A DNA stretch of 64,000 nucleotides from Halarcobacter sp. (lineage in GTDB: Bacteria; Campylobacterota; Campylobacteria; Campylobacterales; Arcobacteraceae). The notes under the pieces were generated by a model. The model was not told where the DNA came from, ran no database searches, and saw only the letters and a list, made by a program, of their open reading frames with translations. The stretch covers positions 682,001-746,000 of the forward strand of contig NZ_OY781470.1 of assembly GCF_963676935.1 (NCBI RefSeq). The letters are read 5' to 3'. Position numbers and translations under genes: made by a program. Position 1 is the first letter of the stretch. The number at the start of each line of letters is the position of its first letter. Below are positions 4,666 through 57,005 of this stretch, piece by piece.

Positions 4666-6993
4666 ATGGATTACAATTTATCAATAAAAGGTATGACTTG
4701 TGCAGCTTGCTCAGGTAGAATAGAAAAACTTTTAAATAAAAATGAAGAGATACAAGAAGCTAATGTAAATCTTACAACAAACAAAGCTTTCTTTAAAAGC
4801 GATGAAAAACTAGATTTAGACCCAATTATAGAAAAAATTGAAAAATATGGTTTTGAAGTGGAAAAAGAAAAAATCGAATTTGATATTAGTGGTATGAGTT
4901 GCTCAGCTTGCTCTAGTAGGATAGAAAAACAAGTAGCAAAAATGGATGGGGTAGTTGAATCAAATGTAAATCTTACTACAAATAAGGGAACTTTTACTAT
5001 TTTAAAAGGCTTACAAACTAGTGATTCAATTATAAAAAGAATAGAAAAACTAGGCTTTAGTGCAAAAGAGGCTAAAGGTGTTGAGTTAAATAATAACGAT
5101 GAAGAGTTAAAAGAGAAAAAGATTAAACTGATTATCTCTGCTATATTTAGTATTCCTATGCTTTTAGGGATGTTTGATATGATATTTTCATTGAGTATTA
5201 TTCCCGATTTTTTCTCAAATGGATATTTTCAACTTCTTTTAGCAACTGTTGTTCAGTTTTATTGTGGAGCACAATTTTATAAAGGTGCGTATGCAAACCT
5301 AACACACTTTAGTGCAAATATGGATGTACTAGTAGCTATGGGGACAAGTGCAGCGTATATCTTCTCTATTTATAATATAACAACAGGTGGACACTTATAT
5401 TTTGAGACTTCAGCAGTTTTAATTACTCTTATTTTATTGGGTAAATATTTAGAACAAAGAGCAAAATCTAAAACAAGTGAAGCTATTTCAAAACTTTTAA
5501 ATCTAAGTCCTAAAAAAGCAAATGTAATAAGAGATGAAAAAGAGATTACAATAACTACTAATGAGGTTTTAAAAGGTGATATTATTTTAGTAAAGCCAGG
5601 TGAAAAGATACCTGTTGATGGAGTTGTTATTGAAGGGGAAAGTTATATTGATGAATCTATGGTTACAGGGGAGAGTAAGCCCGTAAAAAAAATTATAGAA
5701 AATAGTGTTATTGGTGGAACAATTAATGGAAATTCAACATTTAAATATAAAGCTACAAAATTAGGTGATGAGAGTTTTCTCTCCCAAATAGTAAAAGTGG
5801 TAGAGCAAGCCCAAGGAAGTAAAGCTTCTATCCAAAGATTTGCAGATGTTATCTCAGGTTATTTTGTACCAACAGTTATAGTAATAGCTTTTTTAGTGTT
5901 TTTATATTGGAACTTTTTAGCAAAAGATACCACTTTTGAAACTGCTATTATAAATATGGTTGCAGTTTTAGTTATAGCTTGCCCGTGTGCTTTGGGACTT
6001 GCAACTCCAACTTCTATTATGGTTGGAAGTGGAAAAGGGGCACAAAATGGAATACTTTTTAAAGGTGGGGAACACCTTGAAAATATGCAAAAAGTTGATA
6101 CAGTAGTTTTTGATAAAACAGGAACAATAACTCTTGGAAAACCAAGTGTAACAAAGGTTTTGGCAAAAGATGAAAATAGAGTTTTACAATTAGCCGCATC
6201 CATTGAAAAACATTCAGAACATCCTTTAGGAAAAGCAATTACAGAGTTTTTTGAAGGAAAACTTTTAGAGGTTAAAAATGTAGAAGCTATTACGGGCTTA
6301 GGGATTAAAGGCGAAATTGATTCCAAAGAGATTTTAGTTGGTTCAAAAAAATTTATTGAACAAAATATTAAAATAGAAAATGATGAGATAAAAGATGAAG
6401 TTGGTTCACTTATTTATGTGGCTTATGATAACTTTTATGAGGGAGTTATTGTAGTTGCAGATGAGATTAAAGCAGATACAAAACAAGCAATACAAAATCT
6501 TAAAGATTTAGGAATTGATGTATATATGTTAACAGGAGACAATGAAAAAACTGCTTTACATATTGCAAAACAAGTAGGTATTGAACATGTTTTTGCAGAG
6601 GTTTTACCAACACAAAAAAGTGAAAAAGTAAAACAACTTCAAGAGAAAGGAGCTTTTGTTGCAATGGTTGGTGATGGGATAAATGATGCACCGGCACTTG
6701 CAGTTGCAAATATTGGAATTGCCATTGGTAGTGGAACTGATATTGCCATAGAAGCCTCTGATGTAACTTTACTTCAAGGTGATATTACAAGTGTTTCAAA
6801 AGCGATAAATCTTAGTAGAAAAACTATGGCAAATATAAAACAAAACCTGTTTTGGGCATTGATTTATAATATAATAGGTATTCCAATTGCAGCAGCAGGA
6901 TTACTTAATCCTATAGTTGCAGGAACTGCTATGGCATTTAGTTCAGTATCTGTTGTAACAAATGCTTTAAGATTAAAACAAACAAAATTATAA
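4666..6993 (+). CDS. copA: Copper-exporting P1B-1 ATPase CopA
   Basis: 775 residues. Pumps Cu(I) out of the cytoplasm using ATP. Two N-terminal HMA domains carry GMTCAAC (C12, C15) and GMSCSAC (C79, C82). Eight hydrophobic segments surround the actuator (TGES), the membrane copper site CPC (C439, C441, in CPCALGLATP), the phosphorylated Asp483 in DKTGT, the HP motif and GDGINDAP. Length and layout are those of standard bacterial CopA. It has its own promoter after the preceding terminator, and a copZ-type chaperone follows after 13 bases. Comparison with the P-type ATPase just upstream is useful: this one keeps every canonical copper ligand, the other does not. Confidence 0.95.
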   Translation: MDYNLSIKGMTCAACSGRIEKLLNKNEEIQEANVNLTTNKAFFKSDEKLDLDPIIEKIEKYGFEVEKEKIEFDISGMSCSACSSRIEKQVAKMDGVVESNVNLTTNKGTFTILKGLQTSDSIIKRIEKLGFSAKEAKGVELNNNDEELKEKKIKLIISAIFSIPMLLGMFDMIFSLSIIPDFFSNGYFQLLLATVVQFYCGAQFYKGAYANLTHFSANMDVLVAMGTSAAYIFSIYNITTGGHLYFETSAVLITLILLGKYLEQRAKSKTSEAISKLLNLSPKKANVIRDEKEITITTNEVLKGDIILVKPGEKIPVDGVVIEGESYIDESMVTGESKPVKKIIENSVIGGTINGNSTFKYKATKLGDESFLSQIVKVVEQAQGSKASIQRFADVISGYFVPTVIVIAFLVFLYWNFLAKDTTFETAIINMVAVLVIACPCALGLATPTSIMVGSGKGAQNGILFKGGEHLENMQKVDTVVFDKTGTITLGKPSVTKVLAKDENRVLQLAASIEKHSEHPLGKAITEFFEGKLLEVKNVEAITGLGIKGEIDSKEILVGSKKFIEQNIKIENDEIKDEVGSLIYVAYDNFYEGVIVVADEIKADTKQAIQNLKDLGIDVYMLTGDNEKTALHIAKQVGIEHVFAEVLPTQKSEKVKQLQEKGAFVAMVGDGINDAPALAVANIGIAIGSGTDIAIEASDVTLLQGDITSVSKAINLSRKTMANIKQNLFWALIYNIIGIPIAAAGLLNPIVAGTAMAFSSVSVVTNALRLKQTKL

Positions 6994-7006
6994 ATAAGGA
7001 GATTTT

Positions 7007-7216
7007 ATGAAAGAATTAGAAATTGGTGTAAATGGTATGAATTGTGGTCATTGTAAAATGGCTGTTGAAAATGAATTAAAAGATTTATCTGGTGTAAGTA
7101 ATGCAGAGGTTAGTTTAGAAGAAAAAAAAGTAACTGTAAGTTTAGAAGATGAATCTTTATCTGTTGATAAACTTTATGAAGCTATTGAAGAAGCAGGATT
7201 TGAACCTGTAAAATAG
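7007..7216 (+). CDS. copZ: CopZ-like copper chaperone
   Basis: 69-residue single HMA domain with the metal-binding motif GMNCGHC (C13, C16). Proteins of this size bind Cu(I) in the cytoplasm and hand it to CopA. The gene lies 13 bases after copA with a good TAAGGAG binding site, so the two are co-transcribed. The His in the CxxC spacer (GHC) is common in the CopZ/ZntA-type chaperone group; context favours copper. Confidence 0.9.
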   Translation: MKELEIGVNGMNCGHCKMAVENELKDLSGVSNAEVSLEEKKVTVSLEDESLSVDKLYEAIEEAGFEPVK

Positions 7217-7223
7217 TTTTATA

Positions 7224-7249
7224 AAAAAGCAGCTATTATGCTGCTTTTT
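7224..7249. terminator. Bidirectional terminator between copZ and hcp
   Basis: AAAAAGCAGC and GCTGCTTTTT form a 10-bp stem with a 6-base loop, flanked by A and T runs on both sides. It overlaps the last codons of the convergent hcp gene. Confidence 0.8.
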
Positions 7250-8561
7250 CAATAAGAAGTTTTTTTAGATCCTCTTTTGCATCACCTGTTAAGTGAAGGT
7301 TGAAATTTTCAACTAAGAAGTTAAATATATCTTCATTTACAAATTGTGGTGGTTTTGGTCCTAGGTAAATATCTTTTATACCTAAAGAGAATAGGGCTAA
7401 AAGAATAATAACAGCTTTTTGCTCCATCCAAGAAAGTACAATAGATATAGGTAGATCATTTATAGGAGTATTTAAAGCCGAGCTTACTGCTTTTGCAATC
7501 TCTACTGCGCCATTTGAATCATTACATTGTCCTAAGTCTAAATATCTAGGGATACCAGTACCTTCTATTTCCCCAAAATCTATGTCATTGAATCTAAATT
7601 TACCACAACTTGAAGTTATAATCACACAATCTTCTGGTAAATTTTCAACTAGTTCTCTATAATAATTTCCGGCACTTCCTGGTGCATCACATCCTGCAAC
7701 TACAAAAAATTGTCTTATTTTTCCCTCTTCTACTGCTTTTAAGATTTGTGGCGCAAGTGTTAAAATAGTTTTATAGTGATGACCTGTTGTTAGAGTAAGA
7801 TTCTCTTGCATATTTGTATCTTCACATTGTAAAGTTTTTTCTATTAGTTCATCAAAGTTATCATCAACTATTGCTGTACCACCTTCAATACCCACAATTT
7901 TGTATGTGAATACTCTATCAACATATGTTGCACTTTTTTTAGGTGGTACAATACAGTTTGTACTAACAACAAAAGTTCCTTTGAATTTTTCCATTAGTTT
8001 TGCTTGGTCAAACCATGCTTTTCCTACATTTCCTCTTAGGTGGGGATATTTTTTTAATTCAGGATATCCATGGGCTGGAAGCATCTCTGAGTGAGTATAT
8101 ATATTTATACCTTTGTCTTGCGTAGCTATAAGAAGTTTTTCTAACATATCTAAGTTGTGACCTGTAACTAATATAGCTTTACCCTCAACCACATTTTGAC
8201 TAACTTTCACAGGACTTGGAATACCAAACTTATTTGTGTGTGCATTTGATAACTTATCCATAACTTCTACCCCAGCACTTCCCACTTTCATAAGTTGGTT
8301 TATATGATCATTAAAATTAAAATTCACATTTGTAAGTGTAAAATATAAAGTTTCACTAATAATATCATCTACATTTTTAGTTTGATTTGGTTTTAGTTCA
8401 TTTAAATGCTCTCTATATGCACTTAATCCCTTTAGTCCAAAAATCATAATATCTTGAAGTCTAGCAAGGTTTTCATCTTTTCCACATGTTCCAGTTGTTG
8501 CGCCTGTAGAACCACAGCCATTTGGAGCACTCATTTCACATTGATAACAAAACATACTCAT
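7236..8561 (-). CDS. hcp: Hybrid-cluster protein / hydroxylamine reductase (short form)
   Basis: 441 residues, about 100 fewer than class I and II Hcp. The N-terminus has the proximal-cluster cysteines in a C-x2-C-x7-C-x9-C spacing (C5, C8, C16, C26). Hybrid-cluster motifs follow: THSEMLPAHGYP, a TNC motif, GCDAPG and SSCGKFR. The missing segment is the second helical bundle after the first cysteines, as in class III Hcp. The family reduces hydroxylamine and nitric oxide in the cytoplasm and protects against nitrosative stress; in E. coli it also transfers NO to protein thiols. No hcr reductase gene is adjacent. A perfect FNR-type box lies 58-71 bases before the ATG, which fits anaerobic or NO-dependent induction. 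Single-gene transcript, convergent with copAZ. Confidence 0.92.
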   Translation of the reverse strand: MSMFCYQCEMSAPNGCGSTGATTGTCGKDENLARLQDIMIFGLKGLSAYREHLNELKPNQTKNVDDIISETLYFTLTNVNFNFNDHINQLMKVGSAGVEVMDKLSNAHTNKFGIPSPVKVSQNVVEGKAILVTGHNLDMLEKLLIATQDKGINIYTHSEMLPAHGYPELKKYPHLRGNVGKAWFDQAKLMEKFKGTFVVSTNCIVPPKKSATYVDRVFTYKIVGIEGGTAIVDDNFDELIEKTLQCEDTNMQENLTLTTGHHYKTILTLAPQILKAVEEGKIRQFFVVAGCDAPGSAGNYYRELVENLPEDCVIITSSCGKFRFNDIDFGEIEGTGIPRYLDLGQCNDSNGAVEIAKAVSSALNTPINDLPISIVLSWMEQKAVIILLALFSLGIKDIYLGPKPPQFVNEDIFNFLVENFNLHLTGDAKEDLKKLLIEKAA

Positions 8562-8618
8562 AAAATTCCTTTATTCTAAATTGAGTTGAAATACTATATG
8601 AAATAGGTATATGTTTCA

Positions 8619-8632
8619 TTGATTTAAATCAA
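8619..8632. promoter_or_regulatory. FNR/NNR-type box upstream of hcp
   Basis: TTGATTTAAATCAA, a perfect match to the TTGAT-N4-ATCAA consensus of CRP/FNR-family regulators. It is centred 64 bases before the hcp ATG, compatible with class II activation at about -41.5. Confidence 0.75.
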
Positions 8633-8724
8633 TAATACTATTACAGTACTATCTTAATGTATAATTGTAATGGTTATTTAAGTTATTATATTTAATAATC
8701 ATAATAAATTAATATAGGAAAAAG

Positions 8725-11193
8725 ATGGCAAAAAAATTTCTCCAACAAGTTTTATCATTACATTTCATTAAATTTTCTTTAATTCCAATTTTAGTAGTTG
8801 AGGTCGCTTTATTAATACTTTACTTTTCAATAAATGCATATATTTCATCAAAAAATACAAATTTGCTATTAAATGAAGCACAATCACATGTAAAAGATAT
8901 CTTATCTAATGAAGTAGAACTTATAGAAGATAAATTAAATGAAGTTTCAATGATGGCAAAACTATTGCAAAATGAACATCAAGTACTATTTAAAAATCTT
9001 AAAAATAATAGATTGCCAAATGGAAAACCTAGTTTTGATGTTGCACCAAATGGAGTTTTTTATAAAACCAATAAAGTTGGTTCAAGTGTTTATTATTCTG
9101 CACAAACAAAAATAGATGAAAAAGCAATAGAAAAAGCAACTTTTACAGAAGCAATGGATACTAGTTTTAAAAGTATTACAGAGATAAATCCTATTATTGT
9201 TGCGGCATACTTTAATAGTTGGGACAATATGAATAGACTTTATCCTTTTATTGATAAAGTTTATGAACAGTATGGTCCACATATTCAAATGCAAGATTAC
9301 AATTTTTACTATTTAGCTGATTTAAAACACAACCCTAAAAAAGAACCAGTTTGGACTGGTGCTTATCTTGATCCAGCAGGAAATGGTTGGATGCTTTCTT
9401 GTATTGTTCCTATTTATAATGGTGATTTTTTAGAAGGTGTTACAGGATTAGATATAACAATTGATAGTTTTATAAAAAATATTTTAAATACAAAACTAGT
9501 TTATAATGCAAAATTTTTCATGCTTAGTAAAGATGGTATGATAATTGCCATGCCAGAAAAAATAGAGAATCTTTTGGGATTAAAAGAGTTAAAAGAACAT
9601 CTTTATACAGATAAGATTTTGAAAACAATAGAAAAGCCTGAAGAGTTTAATATATTAAAAAATAAATCTCCATTTGCGTCACATTTTAAAAATCTTATAG
9701 AAAATAATTTAGAATTAGATTCCCTAAAAATTAAAGATGATGAATATTTAACGCTACAACAATCTGTTAAAGAAACAGATTGGAAATTGATGGTTTTAAT
9801 TGATAAAAAAGAGATTTTTAATTCAATTGAAAATTTAAAAGAGTTATCAAATCAGATTGGATATTTAGCAATAGGATTTTTACTTTTGTTTTATGTAGTT
9901 TTCTTTTATATGCTTTTAAAAAGAATAAATAAGTTTTCAAAAGTTATCACTGAGCCAATCATTAAATTATCAGATCAAACTTCAGAGATTAAATCTACAG
10001 ATTTCAAAATTGAACTTATAAAAACTGATATTAGAGAAATAGAACAACTAAATCAAAACTTTACGAGTATGATGAATGAGTTAAATGATAGTACGAGAAA
10101 ACTTTATGAGGCAAAAGAGTTAGCTGAAGAATTATCAAGAGCAAAAGATGATTTCTTGGCGAATATGAGTCATGAATTAAAAACTCCATTAAATTCAATT
10201 AATGTAATTAGTGAATTGATGAGAAACAATAATACTGGTAATTTAGACCAAAAACAAGTAAAAAGTTTAGAGATAATTAATAAATGTGGTAAAGACCTAC
10301 TATATCTAATAAATGATGTACTTGATATCTCAAAACTAGAGGCTGGACAAATTGAACTTGATTATACAACTTTAGATGTAAAAGAGTTAATGGAAACAAT
10401 AAATGATATGTTTAGCTCACAAGCTGAAGAAAAAGGGATAAATCTTAGTTTAGAAATAGATAAAAGTTTAAATTTTATTTATAGTGATGAATCTAGGATT
10501 AAACAGATAGTAAAAAATTTATTATCTAATTCTTTAAAGTTTACTCCAAAAGATAAAAATATTATATTTAAAGTAAAAGATGAAGATAAATTTATTAAAA
10601 TCATAATTGAGGATGAAGGGGTAGGGATACCTCAAGATAAATTAGAACACATTTTTGATAGATTTAAACAAGTTGATACAAGTATTACACGACAATATGG
10701 TGGTACTGGACTTGGACTTGCTATATGTAAAGATCTTTTGATACTTTTAGATGGAGAAATAAAAGTTTCTAGTGAAGTGGGAAGTGGTAGTAGATTTGAA
10801 GTTCTAATACCTAAAAATGAAGATAAAATAGATGAGGTATTTAAAAAGAATTTTGAACTAAAAGATATCTCTAAAAGTGAAAAATTAAAAGATAAAATCT
10901 TAGTTTATAATAGTGATCCTGTAAGTTTTATGCATCATATTATGGAAATAAAAAAACATTTTGAAACCTCTTTTACAACAATTTTAGATGAGCTTATAAA
11001 AAAATATGAAAAAGAGACCTCAAAAGTGTTAATTGAAGAAAAAAATTTAACTCAAAATGATATAGATAAAATTTCAAGTAATATACGAAAAGAGGATTTA
11101 ATTGTTATTGTAGAAGATAATGAAGATTCTAAACTTAAAAACTTTGCAGATAAAACAATAAAAAAGAGTTTTAATATAGAAGATTTATATTAA
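8725..11193 (+). CDS. Membrane sensor histidine kinase with periplasmic Cache domain
   Basis: 822 residues. A membrane helix at about 15-37 and another at about 378-398 bracket a large periplasmic region of the double-Cache type (DPAGNGWMLSCIVPIYNGDF and TGLDITID are typical Cache strands). A HAMP-like linker is followed by HisKA with phospho-acceptor H483 in NMSHELKTP and a HATPase domain with DEGVGIP and GGTGLGLAI. The last ~100 residues (from KDKILVYNSDP) look like a receiver domain without a convincing phospho-Asp. Cache domains usually bind small carboxylates or amino acids. No response regulator gene is adjacent. The BCCT transporter gene downstream is separated by 181 bases and has its own promoter region, so a link is possible but unproven. 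Confidence 0.85.
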   Translation: MAKKFLQQVLSLHFIKFSLIPILVVEVALLILYFSINAYISSKNTNLLLNEAQSHVKDILSNEVELIEDKLNEVSMMAKLLQNEHQVLFKNLKNNRLPNGKPSFDVAPNGVFYKTNKVGSSVYYSAQTKIDEKAIEKATFTEAMDTSFKSITEINPIIVAAYFNSWDNMNRLYPFIDKVYEQYGPHIQMQDYNFYYLADLKHNPKKEPVWTGAYLDPAGNGWMLSCIVPIYNGDFLEGVTGLDITIDSFIKNILNTKLVYNAKFFMLSKDGMIIAMPEKIENLLGLKELKEHLYTDKILKTIEKPEEFNILKNKSPFASHFKNLIENNLELDSLKIKDDEYLTLQQSVKETDWKLMVLIDKKEIFNSIENLKELSNQIGYLAIGFLLLFYVVFFYMLLKRINKFSKVITEPIIKLSDQTSEIKSTDFKIELIKTDIREIEQLNQNFTSMMNELNDSTRKLYEAKELAEELSRAKDDFLANMSHELKTPLNSINVISELMRNNNTGNLDQKQVKSLEIINKCGKDLLYLINDVLDISKLEAGQIELDYTTLDVKELMETINDMFSSQAEEKGINLSLEIDKSLNFIYSDESRIKQIVKNLLSNSLKFTPKDKNIIFKVKDEDKFIKIIIEDEGVGIPQDKLEHIFDRFKQVDTSITRQYGGTGLGLAICKDLLILLDGEIKVSSEVGSGSRFEVLIPKNEDKIDEVFKKNFELKDISKSEKLKDKILVYNSDPVSFMHHIMEIKKHFETSFTTILDELIKKYEKETSKVLIEEKNLTQNDIDKISSNIRKEDLIVIVEDNEDSKLKNFADKTIKKSFNIEDLY

Positions 11194-42862: not shown

Positions 42863-43315
42863 ATGAAAAAAATTGTTGTATTTATGATATTTAGTATATC
42901 AATACTTTTTGCTTCTAATTTAAAAGTTGAAGATGGATATGTTAGAGCTACTCCTCCAAGTTTACCTAATTCAGCAGCTTTTATGAAAGTTATAAATAGT
43001 TCTAATGAAACAGTATCAATAGTTAAAGCATTATCTAATGTATCTAAAGTGGTTGAATTGCATACCCATCTAATGAAAGATGGTATTATGAAAATGGTTC
43101 AAGTTCCAAAAATAGAAGTACCTGCAAATGGAGAAGTATCACTTCAACCTGGTGGTTTTCATATTATGTTAATTGGTTTAAATAAAGCTTTAAAAGAGGG
43201 TGAAAGTGTAACTTTAACTTTAGAGTTTTCAAATGGTGAAAGTAAAACAATTACTGTACCTGTTAAAACAGTAATGGATGGTATGAAACACCATGGTAAT
43301 CATATGCACAACTAA
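42863..43315 (+). CDS. Periplasmic copper chaperone PCu(A)C
   Basis: 150 residues with a signal peptide (about 1-18). The copper-binding pattern H-x(n)-M-x(n)-H-x-M is present: ELHTHLMKDG, a Met at MKMVQVP, then PGGFHIMLIGL. The C-terminus has extra His and Met (MKHHGNHMHN), common in these proteins. PCuAC carries Cu(I) in the periplasm to cytochrome oxidase CuA sites. It is followed after 12 bases by two further genes that end with SCO, so copper delivery to an oxidase is the likely job. Confidence 0.92.
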   Translation: MKKIVVFMIFSISILFASNLKVEDGYVRATPPSLPNSAAFMKVINSSNETVSIVKALSNVSKVVELHTHLMKDGIMKMVQVPKIEVPANGEVSLQPGGFHIMLIGLNKALKEGESVTLTLEFSNGESKTITVPVKTVMDGMKHHGNHMHN

Positions 43316-43327
43316 GTTTATTTGTAA

Positions 43328-43813
43328 ATGACTAAAAACAAAAATGATTTAAAAAGTTTAATAATATCTTCAGTAGCTATTATTGCAATAGTTTTGGGAT
43401 ATTTTCTAATTGATTTTAATGTTTTATATCAATCTTTTAAAGGTGAAGTAAAATTTGTTACTCAAAAAGCAGATTGTGATTTACATAAAAGAAGTTGTAC
43501 CATAACAATACAGGATGGTACAACTTTTGAATTAAGTATAACACCTAAAGATATTCCTTTAATGAAACCTTTGAAATTTACCATAAAAAGTAATAATCCT
43601 AATTTAGAAAAGTTAAATTTAAATATTTATGCTACAAATATGTTTATGGGAGATTTTAATTTACCTATTAAGAATTTATCAAATGGAAATTATGAAGCAA
43701 TTGGCACACTTCCTACTTGTCCTGTTGGAGATATGAAGTGGAATGCAGAAATAAGAATTGAAAAATTAAATGAAACAATTGGAGCAAGATTCCAATTTAA
43801 AACGGATATATAA
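43328..43813 (+). CDS. Membrane-anchored periplasmic protein between PCuAC and SCO
   Basis: 161 residues. One N-terminal membrane helix (about 10-30) and a periplasmic beta-rich domain. It has three Cys (CDLHKRSC and TLPTCPVGDMKW) and a Met-containing stretch NMFMGDFNLPI that could bind copper. Domain length and the FxxxGDxxxP pattern are compatible with FixH-like or copper-accessory folds, but no family is assigned with confidence. Its stop shares one base with the SCO ATG, so it works in the same operon. Confidence 0.7.
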   Translation: MTKNKNDLKSLIISSVAIIAIVLGYFLIDFNVLYQSFKGEVKFVTQKADCDLHKRSCTITIQDGTTFELSITPKDIPLMKPLKFTIKSNNPNLEKLNLNIYATNMFMGDFNLPIKNLSNGNYEAIGTLPTCPVGDMKWNAEIRIEKLNETIGARFQFKTDI

Positions 43814-44385
43814 TGAGAATGATTTCAAAACTAAGTATTGTAGTTGTTATTGCAGCTCTTTTAATTGTATTTTTAAAACCATATGTTGACGAATACAAAG
43901 AAGCAAAAAAATATGATTTTAAAGTAAACACTTTAGATGGTGAAGTGACTAAAGAAAGTTTCAAAGGAAAGGCTTTAGCTGTTTACTTTGGTTATACATA
44001 TTGTCCAGATGTATGTCCTACATCATTAAGTAGTTTATCAAGTGCATTAAAAAAATTTGATAAAGAAAAAACTGATAACTTTGTAGGTTTATTTATAAGT
44101 GTAGACCCTAATAGAGATACTTTAAAAAATCTAAAAGAGTATGCACATTATTTTAATAAAAATTTTATTGGTGCTACATCAACTAAAGAAAATATAGATG
44201 ATATCACAAGTAGGTATGGATCATATTATAAGAAGATACCTTTAGAAAATTCTGCAATGGGATATTCTGTTTCACATACATCATTTATCTATTTATTTGA
44301 TAAAAATGGGAGATTTGTTGCAAAAGTTGATCATTTTTCAGACCCAAGTAAAATTGAAGAAAGCTTAAAGAAAATATTAAATTAG
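43813..44385 (+). CDS. SCO1/SenC family copper-delivery protein
   Basis: 190 residues with an N-terminal membrane anchor (about 5-22). The thioredoxin-like fold carries the copper ligands C-x3-C in YCPDVCP and a distal His in VSHTSFIYLF. Members insert copper into the CuA centre of cytochrome oxidase or reduce its Cys. The ATG overlaps the stop of the preceding gene by one base. Last gene of the three-gene operon. Confidence 0.93.
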   Translation: MRMISKLSIVVVIAALLIVFLKPYVDEYKEAKKYDFKVNTLDGEVTKESFKGKALAVYFGYTYCPDVCPTSLSSLSSALKKFDKEKTDNFVGLFISVDPNRDTLKNLKEYAHYFNKNFIGATSTKENIDDITSRYGSYYKKIPLENSAMGYSVSHTSFIYLFDKNGRFVAKVDHFSDPSKIEESLKKILN

Positions 44386-44410: not shown

Positions 44411-44432
44411 TGTCAAGAAAATGTCAAGAAAT
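44411..44432 (+). promoter_or_regulatory. 11-bp direct repeats, probable response-regulator site before nhaA/RR/HK
   Basis: TGTCAAGAAAA and TGTCAAGAAAT in tandem with an 11-bp period, the spacing used by OmpR-type regulators. A related pair is found at 47916-47937. The adjacent operon encodes such a regulator. Confidence 0.7.
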
Positions 44433-44446
44433 AATGTATAAATCTA

Positions 44447-44467
44447 TTGACATTAATAGGGTATAAT
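44447..44467 (+). promoter_or_regulatory. Promoter elements of the nhaA operon
   Basis: TTGACA (44447-44452), then TATAAT (44462-44467) 9 bases later. Direct repeats start exactly 36 bases before TTGACA, the same spacing as in the second copy. With a 9-base gap, TTGACA is more likely part of the regulator or extended site than a -35 box. Confidence 0.5.
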
Positions 44468-44511
44468 TTTACATTTAAAAATAAAAATTTACGAATTTAA
44501 TAGGATTTAAA

Positions 44512-45867
44512 ATGAAATTATATGCACCTTGGGAAAAGGCTTTTAAAAAAGTCTCTACCCCCTTTGAAGAATTTTTACATGCACAAACTACAACAGGGTT
44601 GATATTAATGGTAACAACAGTATTAGCATTAATTCTTGCTAATACAACATTATATGAAACTTATTCTCACTTTTTTCATATGAATATTGATCTTAATGTT
44701 GGTTCTTGGGCTTTTTCTCACTCGTTACATCATTGGATAAATGATGGACTTATGGCTATTTTCTTTTTTCTTATTGGATTAGAGATAAAAAGAGAGATAA
44801 CAGCAGGAGAACTTTCAAATATAAAAGTTGCAATTCTCCCAATCTTAGCTGCTATTGGAGGTATGGTTTTTCCTGCACTAATTTATACAAGCTTAAATTA
44901 TGGAACTCTAGGCTCAAATGGTTGGGGAATTCCTATGGCAACAGATATTGCATTTGCAATTAGTGCTTTAGTTTTATTAGGGAAAAGAATTCCAACTACA
45001 CTTGTAACATTTTTAGTTGCATTGGCTATTGTTGATGATTTAGGTGCGGTTATTGTTATTGCATTATTTTACACTGAAACAATAAATATATTGCCTTTAG
45101 GTTTAGCTGGAGTTATGCTTTTAATAATGATCTCTTTTAATAGATTTGGGATACATATGATTTTGCCATATTTTATAGTTGGTTTATTTATGTGGTTTTT
45201 TATGCTTGAATCAGGTGTTCATGCTACAATTGCCGGTGTATTAGCAGCTTTAGCAATACCTTCAAAACCTAAAAGAGTTCCAGCTAGTCTTACAAAAGAC
45301 ACTAGAGTTTTGTTAGATGAGTATGAAAAATATCCAGAGCAAGAAAATTTTGAATTACATGAAAAACAAAAAAAGATTTTAACAAATATAAAAGATAAAA
45401 TTGATGAAGTAGGCACTCCTGCTGCAAGACTAGAACATGGACTTCATTTACCTGTGGCACTTATTGTTATTCCTATTTTTGCCCTTGCTAATGCTGGAAT
45501 TAAAATCGATTTTTCTTCTATTGGTTCAACTATACTTGAGCCAGTTTCTTTAGGTATTATTGCTGGTTTAATTTTAGGAAAAGTTATAGGGATATTTGGA
45601 GTATCTTGGCTTGCTATTAAATTAAAACTTGCAGAGCTTCCAAAAGGAAGTTCAATGAATCAAATTTTTGGAGTAGCATTTTTAGGTGGAATAGGTTTTA
45701 CTATGTCAATCTTTGTTGCAGATTTAGCTTTTATAGGGAATCCAGAGCTTATATTTCAAGCAAAAATTGGAATTCTTAGTGCTTCATTATTTTCAGGTTT
45801 ATTTGGATATTTTTGGTTAAAGTCAGTATCTTCACACAATGATGAGATTAAAAGTAAAGGTCAATAG
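44512..45867 (+). CDS. nhaA: Na+/H+ antiporter NhaA (second copy)
   Basis: 451 residues, about 12 membrane helices. Transport site in LAIVDDLGAVIVIA; other family segments are HHWINDGLMAIFFFLIGLEIKRE, IPMATDIAFAISALV, and GGIGFTMSIFV. Like the first copy it has a long polar insert (about 255-300). Sequence differs from the first copy, so they are not recent duplicates. Start follows a TAGGA-type site 12 bases upstream. The last base of its stop begins the GTG of a response-regulator gene, so antiporter, regulator and kinase form one operon. Confidence 0.93.
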   Translation: MKLYAPWEKAFKKVSTPFEEFLHAQTTTGLILMVTTVLALILANTTLYETYSHFFHMNIDLNVGSWAFSHSLHHWINDGLMAIFFFLIGLEIKREITAGELSNIKVAILPILAAIGGMVFPALIYTSLNYGTLGSNGWGIPMATDIAFAISALVLLGKRIPTTLVTFLVALAIVDDLGAVIVIALFYTETINILPLGLAGVMLLIMISFNRFGIHMILPYFIVGLFMWFFMLESGVHATIAGVLAALAIPSKPKRVPASLTKDTRVLLDEYEKYPEQENFELHEKQKKILTNIKDKIDEVGTPAARLEHGLHLPVALIVIPIFALANAGIKIDFSSIGSTILEPVSLGIIAGLILGKVIGIFGVSWLAIKLKLAELPKGSSMNQIFGVAFLGGIGFTMSIFVADLAFIGNPELIFQAKIGILSASLFSGLFGYFWLKSVSSHNDEIKSKGQ

Positions 45868-46547
45868 TGAAAAATAAAAATGTACTCTTAATTGAAGATA
45901 ATATTGAGTTACAAAATTTAATAAGTAATTTTTTAAAAGCTTACAATTATGATTGTCATGTCTATTCACAACCTTTAGAGGCTTTAGAAGAGTTTAAATT
46001 AAATCATTCTATATATTCTATAGTAATATTAGATTTAGGACTTCCAGGTATGGATGGTTTTGATCTTTTTAAAAAATTAAAAGAGTTAAAAAATATTCCA
46101 ATTATCATCTCAACAGCAAGAGATGATATTGGAAATAAAATACATGGTTTTGAATTAGGCGCTGATGATTATCTTTCAAAACCTTATGAACCAAGAGAAT
46201 TAGTTTTAAGAATTGATGCAATATTAAAAAGAAATATAAATGACAATGAGATACAAATAAATGAATTAAAAATAGACTTAGATAAAAAAAGTGTATTTTT
46301 AGAAAATCATGAGATAGAATTTACAAAAATAGAATCAGAGATATTTTTTATGTTTATGAATAATATCAATAAAGTTGTTTCAAGAGAAGATATAATCAAT
46401 CAAACTTCATTAAAAAAAGATACAAAAAATAGAACAATTGATATGCATGTAAGTAATATAAGGTTTAAAATCAATGATGACTCAAAAGAGTCAAAATATA
46501 TTAAATCTGTATGGGGAATAGGGTATAAATTTATAAATGACAATTAG
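45867..46547 (+). CDS. OmpR-family response regulator in the nhaA operon
   Basis: 226 residues, GTG start overlapping the nhaA stop. Receiver domain at 1-120 with acidic pair E10-D11, phospho-acceptor D56 in VILDLGLPGMDG and a Lys in LSKPYEP. The C-terminal ~95 residues form a winged-helix domain (EFTKIESEIFFMFM, SNIRFKIN). It belongs with ArsRS/CrdRS-like systems of Campylobacterota. Direct repeats upstream of nhaA and of the peptide gene at 48005 are its likely targets. Overlaps the kinase gene by 11 bases. Confidence 0.9.
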   Translation: MKNKNVLLIEDNIELQNLISNFLKAYNYDCHVYSQPLEALEEFKLNHSIYSIVILDLGLPGMDGFDLFKKLKELKNIPIIISTARDDIGNKIHGFELGADDYLSKPYEPRELVLRIDAILKRNINDNEIQINELKIDLDKKSVFLENHEIEFTKIESEIFFMFMNNINKVVSREDIINQTSLKKDTKNRTIDMHVSNIRFKINDDSKESKYIKSVWGIGYKFINDN

Positions 46548-47913
46548 ACAACGACTTTTTATCTCTTTTTCTTTAATACTTCTTATTACTGTTTTTATAA
46601 TAGGGGTATTCTTTTATTCAATATATAATTTCAATGAAATACATAATTCTCAGATACATCGTTATGACCAGATAAGAAGAGTTGAAAAATTAAAAGAACA
46701 TAGCAACTCTTTTTCTTGGATTGTATTGGATATTATAACTGATTATGATAAATTGAGTATAGTTAAAGAAAGGCTTAACAAAGCAGAAGATATTTATAAA
46801 AGTGTACTTTTTTTACAAAATAAAACAATAGAAAATTCAGAATCAAATAGTGAAAAAAAGAATTTAGAGTTGATTTTTCTACATTTTAAAGAGATCAATT
46901 TTTTAATAAAAAATAGACTATATGAAATTGTAAAACAAAAACAAAGTAGTTTTGACAAATTTAATATTGATTTTGAAAAGTTAAGCAATGATACAAAAAA
47001 TTTACTTGACCAAGAGGTTGTTTATCTTCAAAATGAGCTTAATAAAACAGAAAAAAATAAAAATCAATTTATAGAAACTATAAAAATAGAAGTGGTTTTA
47101 TTACTTCTAATAGCATTTACCTTAGCTTTTGTAATTTCATCAAAAATTATAAAAGAGATAAAGGGGATGTTAGAGAAATTAAACAAAGGTGTTTTACAGC
47201 TATTTAATGATGATGAAAATAGTATAAAAGTAGATATTGGTAAAAACAATGAACTTAGTGAAATAACTAAAAATTTAAATTCATATTTAGAAAAACAAAG
47301 CGATATTATACATTCAAGAGAAGAGCTTTTAAGAAATATAAGTCATGAATTAAAAACTCCAATTACAAAAGGGAAATTTTTACTTGAAGATTTAAAGAAC
47401 AGTAAATATAAAATAGAAGTTGAACATATAAACAATGTATTTATAGATATAGAAGAGTTAACAAATAAATTACTTCAAAGGGAGAAATTAAATTTTGCTA
47501 TTTTAAAAACATACAAGTTTAAAGTAAGCAGTTTAATATTAGAGGCTTTATCGAAACTATCTATTGATGATGAATCAAAAATTATATTAGAAATAGATGA
47601 TGATTTTGAAATAGAAGCAGATAAATATTATATGACTATAGCATTAAAAAACTTGATTGATAATGCTATGAAATATGCATTAGAATTTCCTATTAAAATA
47701 AAAGCCAAAAACAAAATCTTGTTTGTTGAAAATATTGCAGATGAATTATCAAATGACTTGATATATTATATCAGACCCTTTACTAGAGAACCTAACCAAC
47801 AAATGGGACATGGTTTGGGTTTAAATATTGTAAATAAAATCATTCAAATGCATAAATTCAGATTGGGATATAACTACAAAAATTCACATAACATTTTTTA
47901 TATAGTTTTCTAG
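46537..47913 (+). CDS. ArsS-like sensor histidine kinase
   Basis: 458 residues. Membrane helices at about 8-28 and 183-203 bracket a periplasmic helical sensing domain of about 150 residues rich in Lys/Asn and one His-rich start (NEIHNSQIHRYDQ). HAMP-like linker at about 204-255; phospho-acceptor H270 in NISHELKTPITKGK, identical in form to ArsS of Helicobacter and Campylobacter. The ATP domain has NLIDNAMKYAL and MGHGLGLNIV; the DxGxG box is degenerate, as in other ArsS proteins. In H. pylori ArsS responds to acid. With NhaA in the same operon, a pH or sodium response is the most plausible role. Confidence 0.88.
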   Translation: MTIRQRLFISFSLILLITVFIIGVFFYSIYNFNEIHNSQIHRYDQIRRVEKLKEHSNSFSWIVLDIITDYDKLSIVKERLNKAEDIYKSVLFLQNKTIENSESNSEKKNLELIFLHFKEINFLIKNRLYEIVKQKQSSFDKFNIDFEKLSNDTKNLLDQEVVYLQNELNKTEKNKNQFIETIKIEVVLLLLIAFTLAFVISSKIIKEIKGMLEKLNKGVLQLFNDDENSIKVDIGKNNELSEITKNLNSYLEKQSDIIHSREELLRNISHELKTPITKGKFLLEDLKNSKYKIEVEHINNVFIDIEELTNKLLQREKLNFAILKTYKFKVSSLILEALSKLSIDDESKIILEIDDDFEIEADKYYMTIALKNLIDNAMKYALEFPIKIKAKNKILFVENIADELSNDLIYYIRPFTREPNQQMGHGLGLNIVNKIIQMHKFRLGYNYKNSHNIFYIVF

Positions 47914-47915
47914 TT

Positions 47916-47937
47916 TGTCAAGAAAATGTAAAGAATT
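47916..47937 (+). promoter_or_regulatory. Second copy of the 11-bp direct-repeat site
   Basis: TGTCAAGAAAA followed by TGTAAAGAATT (8 of 11 matches). First unit identical to that at 44411. It starts 3 bases after the kinase stop and precedes a 25-codon gene. Confidence 0.65.
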
Positions 47938-47951
47938 ATTACCTTTTATAA

Positions 47952-47972
47952 TTGACATAAATAATGTAAAAT
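47952..47972 (+). promoter_or_regulatory. Promoter elements before the 25-residue peptide gene
   Basis: TTGACA (47952-47957) and TAAAAT (47967-47972). The spacings (36 bases from repeat to TTGACA, 15 from TTGACA to the -10) equal those before nhaA at 44411-44467. Confidence 0.5.
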
Positions 47973-48004
47973 TTTATTAAGAATTAAAATTAAAAGGATG
48001 TGTT

Positions 48005-48082
48005 ATGAAGTTTGTAGTTAAATATGTTGTATTCGTTGTTGTATCATTTCTTACAATAGGTTTAATCAGTTCAAGCTTTTAA
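48005..48082 (+). CDS. 25-residue hydrophobic membrane peptide
   Basis: ATG 48005, with AAAAGGA ending 6 bases before; 25 codons to TAA at 48080-48082. The peptide is one membrane helix, MKFVVKYVVFVVVSFLTIGL, ending in ISSSF. A promoter copy matching that of nhaA lies upstream and a hairpin terminator downstream, so this is a complete transcription unit. It resembles known stress-induced single-helix peptides that tune membrane transporters or kinases. Function inferred only from co-regulation with the NhaA/two-component operon. Confidence 0.65.
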   Translation: MKFVVKYVVFVVVSFLTIGLISSSF

Positions 48083-56186: not shown

Positions 56187-57005
56187 CTAGAAGAAAAATG
56201 GGATACCAAGTTCATCAAATGTGTTTTTGGCATCAGTTAAATATTTTTTAGCAAATGTATCAAAAGTTCCATCCTCTTTTGCTTTTTTGATAAACTCATT
56301 TACTTTTTCTTTTAATGGATCATTTTGTCTTAAAGCAACTCCCCAATATTCAAAATCTTTTTGAAATGGTTTAAGAAGTGGTTTTGTTGTATCCATATGT
56401 TTTGCATAGTTTTTATAAATAGTTAATTGGTCATATAAAAATCCATCAGCTTTACCTTGAACAACTTCAAGTACACATGCAGCTTCTTTATCAAAAACTA
56501 GAATATCAGCATTTGGTAAATTATTTTTTGCGTATAAGTGACCAGTTGAACCTTTTTTTACAGCAACTTTTTTCCCTTCTTTATTTAAATCTTCTATTGA
56601 GTCAACATCAGAATCTTTGTTTGCTAAGATTGCAAGTGAAGTTTGTGCATAAGGAATTGAAAAATCTATAGATTTTTTTCTTTCATCTGTAATTGTCATT
56701 GAAGAGATGATTAGATCAATTTTACCTGTTTTAAGAGATGGAATAAGACCATCCCATGCAATATTCTCAATTACAACTTCTTTATTTAAATATTTACCTA
56801 ATGCTTTAGCAAAATCAACAGAAACACCTGAAGGTGTACCATCTTTATCACTCATTTCAAATGGTGGATAAGCTAATTCCATACCAACTGTTAAAATATC
56901 TTTCTTTACATTCTCTTGAGAATCTGAAGCAACTTTTTGTTCACCACACCCAATAAATAGGAGACTAACAAATAAAACTAAAAAACTAAAAAATAATTTT
57001 TTCAT
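56187..57005 (-). CDS. Amino-acid ABC transporter substrate-binding lipoprotein
   Basis: 272 residues. Lipobox Cys20 in LLFIGCGEQ. SBP family 3 pattern: LTVGMELAYPPFEMSDKDG, GVSVDFAKALGKYLN, GLIPSLKTGKIDLIISSMTIT and the Arg of ERKKSIDFSIPYAQT that binds the amino-acid carboxylate. Located in the outer leaf of the inner membrane. First gene of a two-gene operon with the permease. Substrate likely a polar amino acid such as Gln, Glu, His or Cys. Confidence 0.92.
   Translation of the reverse strand: MKKLFFSFLVLFVSLLFIGCGEQKVASDSQENVKKDILTVGMELAYPPFEMSDKDGTPSGVSVDFAKALGKYLNKEVVIENIAWDGLIPSLKTGKIDLIISSMTITDERKKSIDFSIPYAQTSLAILANKDSDVDSIEDLNKEGKKVAVKKGSTGHLYAKNNLPNADILVFDKEAACVLEVVQGKADGFLYDQLTIYKNYAKHMDTTKPLLKPFQKDFEYWGVALRQNDPLKEKVNEFIKKAKEDGTFDTFAKKYLTDAKNTFDELGIPFFF

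Follow-up and report, generated by a model that had tools for sequence, protein, structure and literature searches.

In E. coli, nhaA is controlled by NhaR, a LysR-type regulator. Among two-component systems, PhoQ is inhibited by MgrB, a 47-aa protein that is itself PhoP-regulated (PMC2789325). The PHO box is made of two 11-nt direct repeats, with the core CTGTCAT in E. coli, on which PhoB binds head to tail (PMC4415409). For H. pylori ArsR a clear consensus site is not described (PMC11162790). A literature search for nhaA and two-component control in Arcobacter found no paper. The locus reported here comes from a 64,000-nt stretch of a Halarcobacter sp. genome (contig NZ_OY781470.1, positions 682,001 to 746,000; hereafter the window, in which the features below are numbered). 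It combines an nhaA, regulator and kinase operon with a 25-residue peptide gene that has a promoter of its own.

The nhaA operon and the two promoters

The operon is compact, with overlapping genes, and each of the three was confirmed with Pfam. The first gene (44512..45867, +) encodes a type 1 Na+/H+ antiporter of 451 aa (PF06965, E 1.6e-147), which scored 414 bits with the NhaA family model TIGR00773 (cut-off 254). It is followed by the genes for a 226-aa OmpR/PhoB-type response regulator (45867..46547, +; Response_reg and Trans_reg_C in Pfam) and a 458-aa histidine kinase (46537..47913, +), a distant ArsS relative. The two adjoin, an OmpR-type regulator being paired with a kinase as in ArsRS. 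The best NCBIfam match of the kinase was ArsS (NF038389, residues 66-456) at 173 bits, under the cut-off of 250. The term “ArsR-like”, used in the earlier note for this OmpR/PhoB-type regulator, is thus appropriate in the Helicobacter ArsRS sense only.

In the kinase, two membrane spans flank an all-helical periplasmic region, and the structure model was confident for this helical sensor (pLDDT ~90 over residues 40-170). Since the overall pTM was low (0.44) and the best 50 matches of the model in the PDB were kinase cores only, no ligand could be inferred for the sensor. Upstream of the locus (window 42863-44385) are the genes of a 161-aa protein that had no significant match in Pfam, a SCO1/SenC protein (Pfam) and a 150-aa protein, which we take to resemble periplasmic copper chaperones; the composite search detected no box of their own for these genes. 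Rfam matched a tRNA and no other known RNA element.

The nhaA operon promoter begins with tandem 11-bp direct repeats, a putative regulator box (44411..44432, +; about -63 to -42), composed of TGTCAAGAAAA (44411-44421) and TGTCAAGAAAT (44422-44432). These are followed by TTGACA (44447..44452, +; about -27 to -22) and the -10 TATAAT (44462..44467, +). The corresponding box of the peptide promoter (47916..47937, +) is composed of TGTCAAGAAAA (47916-47926) and TGTAAAGAATT (47927-47937), with TTGACA at 47952..47957 (+) and the -10 TAAAAT at 47967..47972 (+). Read directly from the coordinates, the repeats start 36 bp before TTGACA, and TTGACA starts 15 bp before the -10, in both promoters. The layout described in the earlier note, of 11-bp repeats with identical spacing, is therefore correct, and a genome-wide composite search found it in full only at these two promoters of the 3.1-Mb genome.

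Two readings of the promoters, TTGACA as the -35 and a recent promoter duplication, had to be given up. TTGACA lies inside the spacer with a gap of 9 bp to the -10 in both promoters, and therefore it is not the -35 of that -10. A second start located another 17 bp on, with TTGACA as its -35, was rejected, as no conserved -10 was present there. At 44439 and 47944, the expected -35 positions for a 17-bp spacer, the first T was invariant in all 42 matrix sites. TTGACA reverse-complements TGTCAA, and its C/A ambiguity mirrors that of the direct repeats (TTGACA/TTTACA and TGTCAA/TGTAAA); the most fitting interpretation is therefore a third half-site in inverted orientation. The element was partly fixed by the search pattern, yet it had first been noticed in alignments made without that pattern, and in the box survey of relatives some clades had CTTTGCA. 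A further TTGACA or TTTACA directly follows the -10 in most nhaA promoters, 21 bp below the first; here it is TTTACA (44468..44473, +), a second putative inverted half-site at the expected transcription start. No such second half-site after the -10 was found in peptide promoters. As for duplication, each promoter was closer to its counterpart in another species (89-91%, nearest relative) than to the other promoter (72%).

The single 11-mer is common, with 47 matches in the window at up to 2 mismatches, below the number in shuffles. Tandems with up to 3 mismatches were found four times in the whole genome and not once in the reversed-pattern control. They represented the nhaA promoter, the peptide promoter, one intragenic site and the promoter of a paralogous operon. 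From base composition, the expected number of full composites is ~0.002 per genome. A chance repeat was ruled out by these genome-wide tandem and composite searches together with the composite search of 104 genomes. A box-like match at 56901 was set aside as intragenic, being located in an apparent amino-acid binding protein gene.

The peptide and its distribution in Arcobacteraceae

The peptide promoter starts right behind the kinase stop codon. The gene (48005..48082, +) encodes a single-span membrane peptide of 25 aa, MKFVVKYVVFVVVSFLTIGLISSSF, and has the ribosome-binding site AAAAGGA (47992..47998, +), which is conserved in orthologues. Members of the family are 25-27 aa long, have a mean hydropathy of up to 2.5 over 19 residues and possess one span; one or two residues close to the N-terminus are basic, and G19 and S22 are conserved. 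These features are consistent with a predicted N-in orientation and helix packing. Orthologues differed at 9.6, 5.4 and 13.1 sites per pair at codon positions 1, 2 and 3, respectively, with a mean pS of 0.59 and a mean pN of 0.33, a pattern which indicates, on evolutionary grounds, that the peptide is translated under selection. A spurious ORF was ruled out by short-ORF listing, profile search and codon-position statistics. Neither Pfam nor NCBIfam contained a known family for the peptide, and we know of no described peptide with a MKFVVKYVVFVVVSFLTIGLISSSF-type sequence. No convincing match outside Arcobacteraceae was found among 397 sampled Campylobacterota genomes; one partial match (1.8e-4) covered 15 residues. 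To judge from these searches, the 25-27 aa family is an undescribed one.

Kinase orthologues (E <= 1e-100) were found in 29 of the 104 Arcobacteraceae genomes sampled, and most of these keep the gene order nhaA, regulator, kinase. The peptide was found by eye 3′ of the kinase in several genomes, then by short-ORF listing and then by profile search (E < 1e-3). It was recovered from 24 genomes, all among the 29 kinase carriers, and from 0 of the 75 others; four extra weak matches (E 0.003-0.05) were treated as chance. The expectation that related species would possess the peptide as a coding gene was thus borne out. It was not detected in the kinase genomes G024, G026, G104, G117 and G122, and therefore the peptide is not indispensable.

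The exact 57-bp composite occurred at 43 sites in 25 of the 29 kinase genomes and in none of the 75 others, with no control matches in any of the 104 genomes. Boxes with one or two deviations were present in the other four carriers. This comparative evidence agrees with the earlier note in that the box marks both the nhaA operon and the peptide gene and, all 43 exact composites being in kinase carriers, most likely belongs to the system of this response regulator. Fisher p values were ~5e-19 for the peptide and ~3e-20 for the box, although the genomes are related and these values overstate independence. Presence was patchy inside the genera g1, g11, g15, g12, g16 and g6, with box, peptide and kinase nearly always occurring together. 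In about half of the carriers the peptide gene follows the kinase on the same strand, and in most others it has a box of its own and is encoded on the other strand (G004, G020, G030, G090, G113, G118, G119, G121, G123 and G124). The peptide gene was ~1.1 kb downstream in G033 and ~790 kb away in G002, where it has retained its box.

The candidate regulon and the target of the peptide

A second NhaA, ~43% identical and encoded directly after the kinase in G002, G024 and G117, is preceded by a box. In G002 and G004 a boxed peptide gene is immediately followed by an Mrp antiporter operon (MNHE, MnhB and MnhG Pfam matches), so that the peptide is the first gene ahead of mrpE, with one box for both. 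A second regulator gene is found just upstream of this arrangement, behind another box. Boxes also precede further protein genes in G024 and G104. The common theme of the predicted regulon is Na+/H+ antiport and small membrane peptides.

Several further boxes were recorded. One precedes an unrelated 28-aa single-span peptide in G026 (MENIGLIVFLGIVIVAVVLGFIALAKKR; L049:3700, -) and another an unrelated 29-aa single-span peptide in G002 (MAIIDIVLFVFIGLVFVGTLIGFYIYNFK; L125:242, -); the two may represent another type of peptide in this regulon. A composite box downstream of the Mrp operon in G002 (L125:9075-9212) and in G004 (L126:10380-10528) precedes a strong RNA hairpin (z -6.4 and -4.3, respectively). 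No plausible ORF was found behind these two boxes, and the hairpins are candidates for a box-driven small RNA. The highest-scoring box of all (61 bits) lies upstream of nhaA in G017 (L040:1688-1860); neither an ORF nor a stable RNA fold was found behind it. In G004 the nhaA beside the regulator (L045) is reduced to a remnant of ~70 C-terminal codons. One peptide copy in this genome is apparently frameshifted in a T run and other copies are intact. The regulator, the kinase and at least one peptide copy are intact in G004 despite the nhaA remnant.

The Halarcobacter genome also contains a paralogous operon (L035, C1:2955000-2968000, at 5968-10326) with a tandem TGTAAAGAAATTGTCAAGAAC box of its own. 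It includes genes for a cytochrome c, a second c-type cytochrome, a cytochrome b with an overlapping frame near 7705-7754, a Spy/CpxP-like protein, a regulator and an ArsS-like kinase, and boxes like TGTAAAGAAATTGTCAAGAAC were found in many relatives. With a regulator 62% identical to the one studied here and a tandem box at its own promoter, such an operon could supply the protein (e.g. that beside the cytochrome operon, 2960968) which binds the boxes instead of, or in addition to, the regulator encoded with nhaA. We consider this very improbable, as the TTGACA-N9-TANNNT composite was found solely in genomes with the nhaA-type kinase, the paralogous promoters have a TTGAAA-like sequence at the TTGACA position and ArsS-like paralogous kinases occur also in composite-free genomes. 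Cross-regulation between the paralogous regulator and the boxes here would be possible.

With respect to the target of the peptide, five genomes had a type 1 NhaA without the kinase and 0 of these 5 had the peptide or the box, whereas among nine genomes with the kinase and no intact type 1 NhaA, five had the peptide. This presence and absence pattern favours the kinase over NhaA as the likely target. Peptide divergence was correlated with that of the kinase sensor (0.75), regulator (0.74), kinase core (0.73) and NhaA (0.67). The partial rho was 0.46 against the kinase sensor and 0.16 against NhaA, a small difference obtained from pairs that are not independent, and the mirror-tree values are a weak indication that the peptide is tied to the kinase sensor. 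Together with the nhaA remnant of G004, these patterns favour a peptide role linked to the two-component system, and feedback on the kinase would be its simplest form. There are known cases of transporter-binding small membrane proteins, and the peptide could instead be an accessory subunit or regulator which stabilises or gates the NhaA and Mrp antiporters with no kinase contact. All the identified neighbouring transport targets are Na+/H+ antiporters, and the position at the head of the Mrp operon in G002 and G004 is equally compatible with an antiporter partner. This is unlikely, however, given that the peptide is missing wherever type 1 NhaA occurs without the kinase and is retained in five genomes without an intact type 1 NhaA, including G004. 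We assign a similarly small probability to the peptide being a membrane stress effector that changes the packing of the membrane or its proton leak, or acts on a further, unnamed target; it would then be an output of the regulon and not its regulator. The box-driven single-span peptides of G026 (28 aa) and G002 (29 aa) are unrelated in sequence, as if the regulon favoured such peptides; against this, a specific partner for helix packing is suggested by the conservation of G19 and S22 and by a length that hardly varies. Nor does the central span of the peptide contain charges like those of TisB and other pore-forming peptides.

Proposed mechanism and relation to known systems

We suggest, with about even confidence, that the locus encodes an autoregulated two-component system for Na+/H+ homeostasis, in which the regulator acts on the tandem repeats and the peptide feeds back on the kinase. 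The kinase, with its helical periplasmic sensor, would phosphorylate the OmpR/PhoB-type regulator in response to a signal that is presumably Na+ or alkali. The regulator would bind the tandem 11-bp TGTCAAG repeats, which lie immediately 5′ of the -35 region (about -63 to -42), and, judging by the position of the box, would most likely activate both promoters. Activation of the operon promoter would provide positive autoregulation as well as antiporter output, the peptide being expressed from its separate promoter. At high levels of the regulator, expression would probably be limited by the inverted half-sites, which lie in the spacer and, in nhaA promoters, also at the start site. The peptide would most likely pack on the membrane helices of the kinase and tune its activity, as MgrB does on PhoQ.

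More tentatively, the peptides could constitute a novel family of intramembrane feedback peptides which, at 25 residues, would rank with the shortest known and would belong to an antiporter-controlling two-component system, with box and peptide forming a portable module. This module would invert, duplicate and relocate, and in two genomes it fronts Mrp where the usual nhaA was lost or replaced. Such natural experiments, in which NhaA was lost, Mrp recruited or the peptide inverted or relocated, would dissociate the peptide from NhaA and link it with the kinase. The binding sites of ArsRS-type regulators in Campylobacterota have so far been hard to define, and the system would provide a compact, testable regulon consisting of a single regulator, two or few targets in each genome and a rigid 57-bp promoter that is essentially free of background in ~100 genomes. 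It would also add a hitherto undescribed membrane peptide family (25-27 aa), the coding status of which is supported by evolution.

Like PhoQ/PhoP and MgrB (PMC2789325), the system includes a small single-span membrane peptide in a putative two-component regulon, the kinase feedback being proposed here. The peptide gene has the same box as the operon and appears coextensive with the two-component system across genomes. Unlike MgrB (47 aa), the peptide is 25-27 aa long and shows no evident sequence relation; moreover, almost all carriers have it next to the two-component operon, and the predicted regulon is centred on antiporters. With H. pylori ArsRS the system shares its occurrence in Campylobacterota, an OmpR-type regulator and a kinase whose best NCBIfam match is ArsS, whereas the kinase is located in one operon with nhaA and its score remains below the family cut-off. 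The rigid 57-bp promoter arrangement is a further difference from H. pylori ArsR (PMC11162790). Two 11-nt direct repeats upstream of the target promoters, as in OmpR/PhoB tandem boxes, and their TGTCA core resemble the PHO box (PMC4415409). Unlike the PHO box, the box here stands ~29 bp ahead of the -10, and the spacer contains a conserved, putative inverted half-site; in contrast to the PhoB regulon, its predicted targets encode antiporters and peptides rather than phosphate functions. As with NhaR and nhaA in E. coli, a Na+/H+ antiporter gene would be under dedicated control, exerted not by a LysR-type regulator but by a two-component system encoded in the nhaA operon itself.
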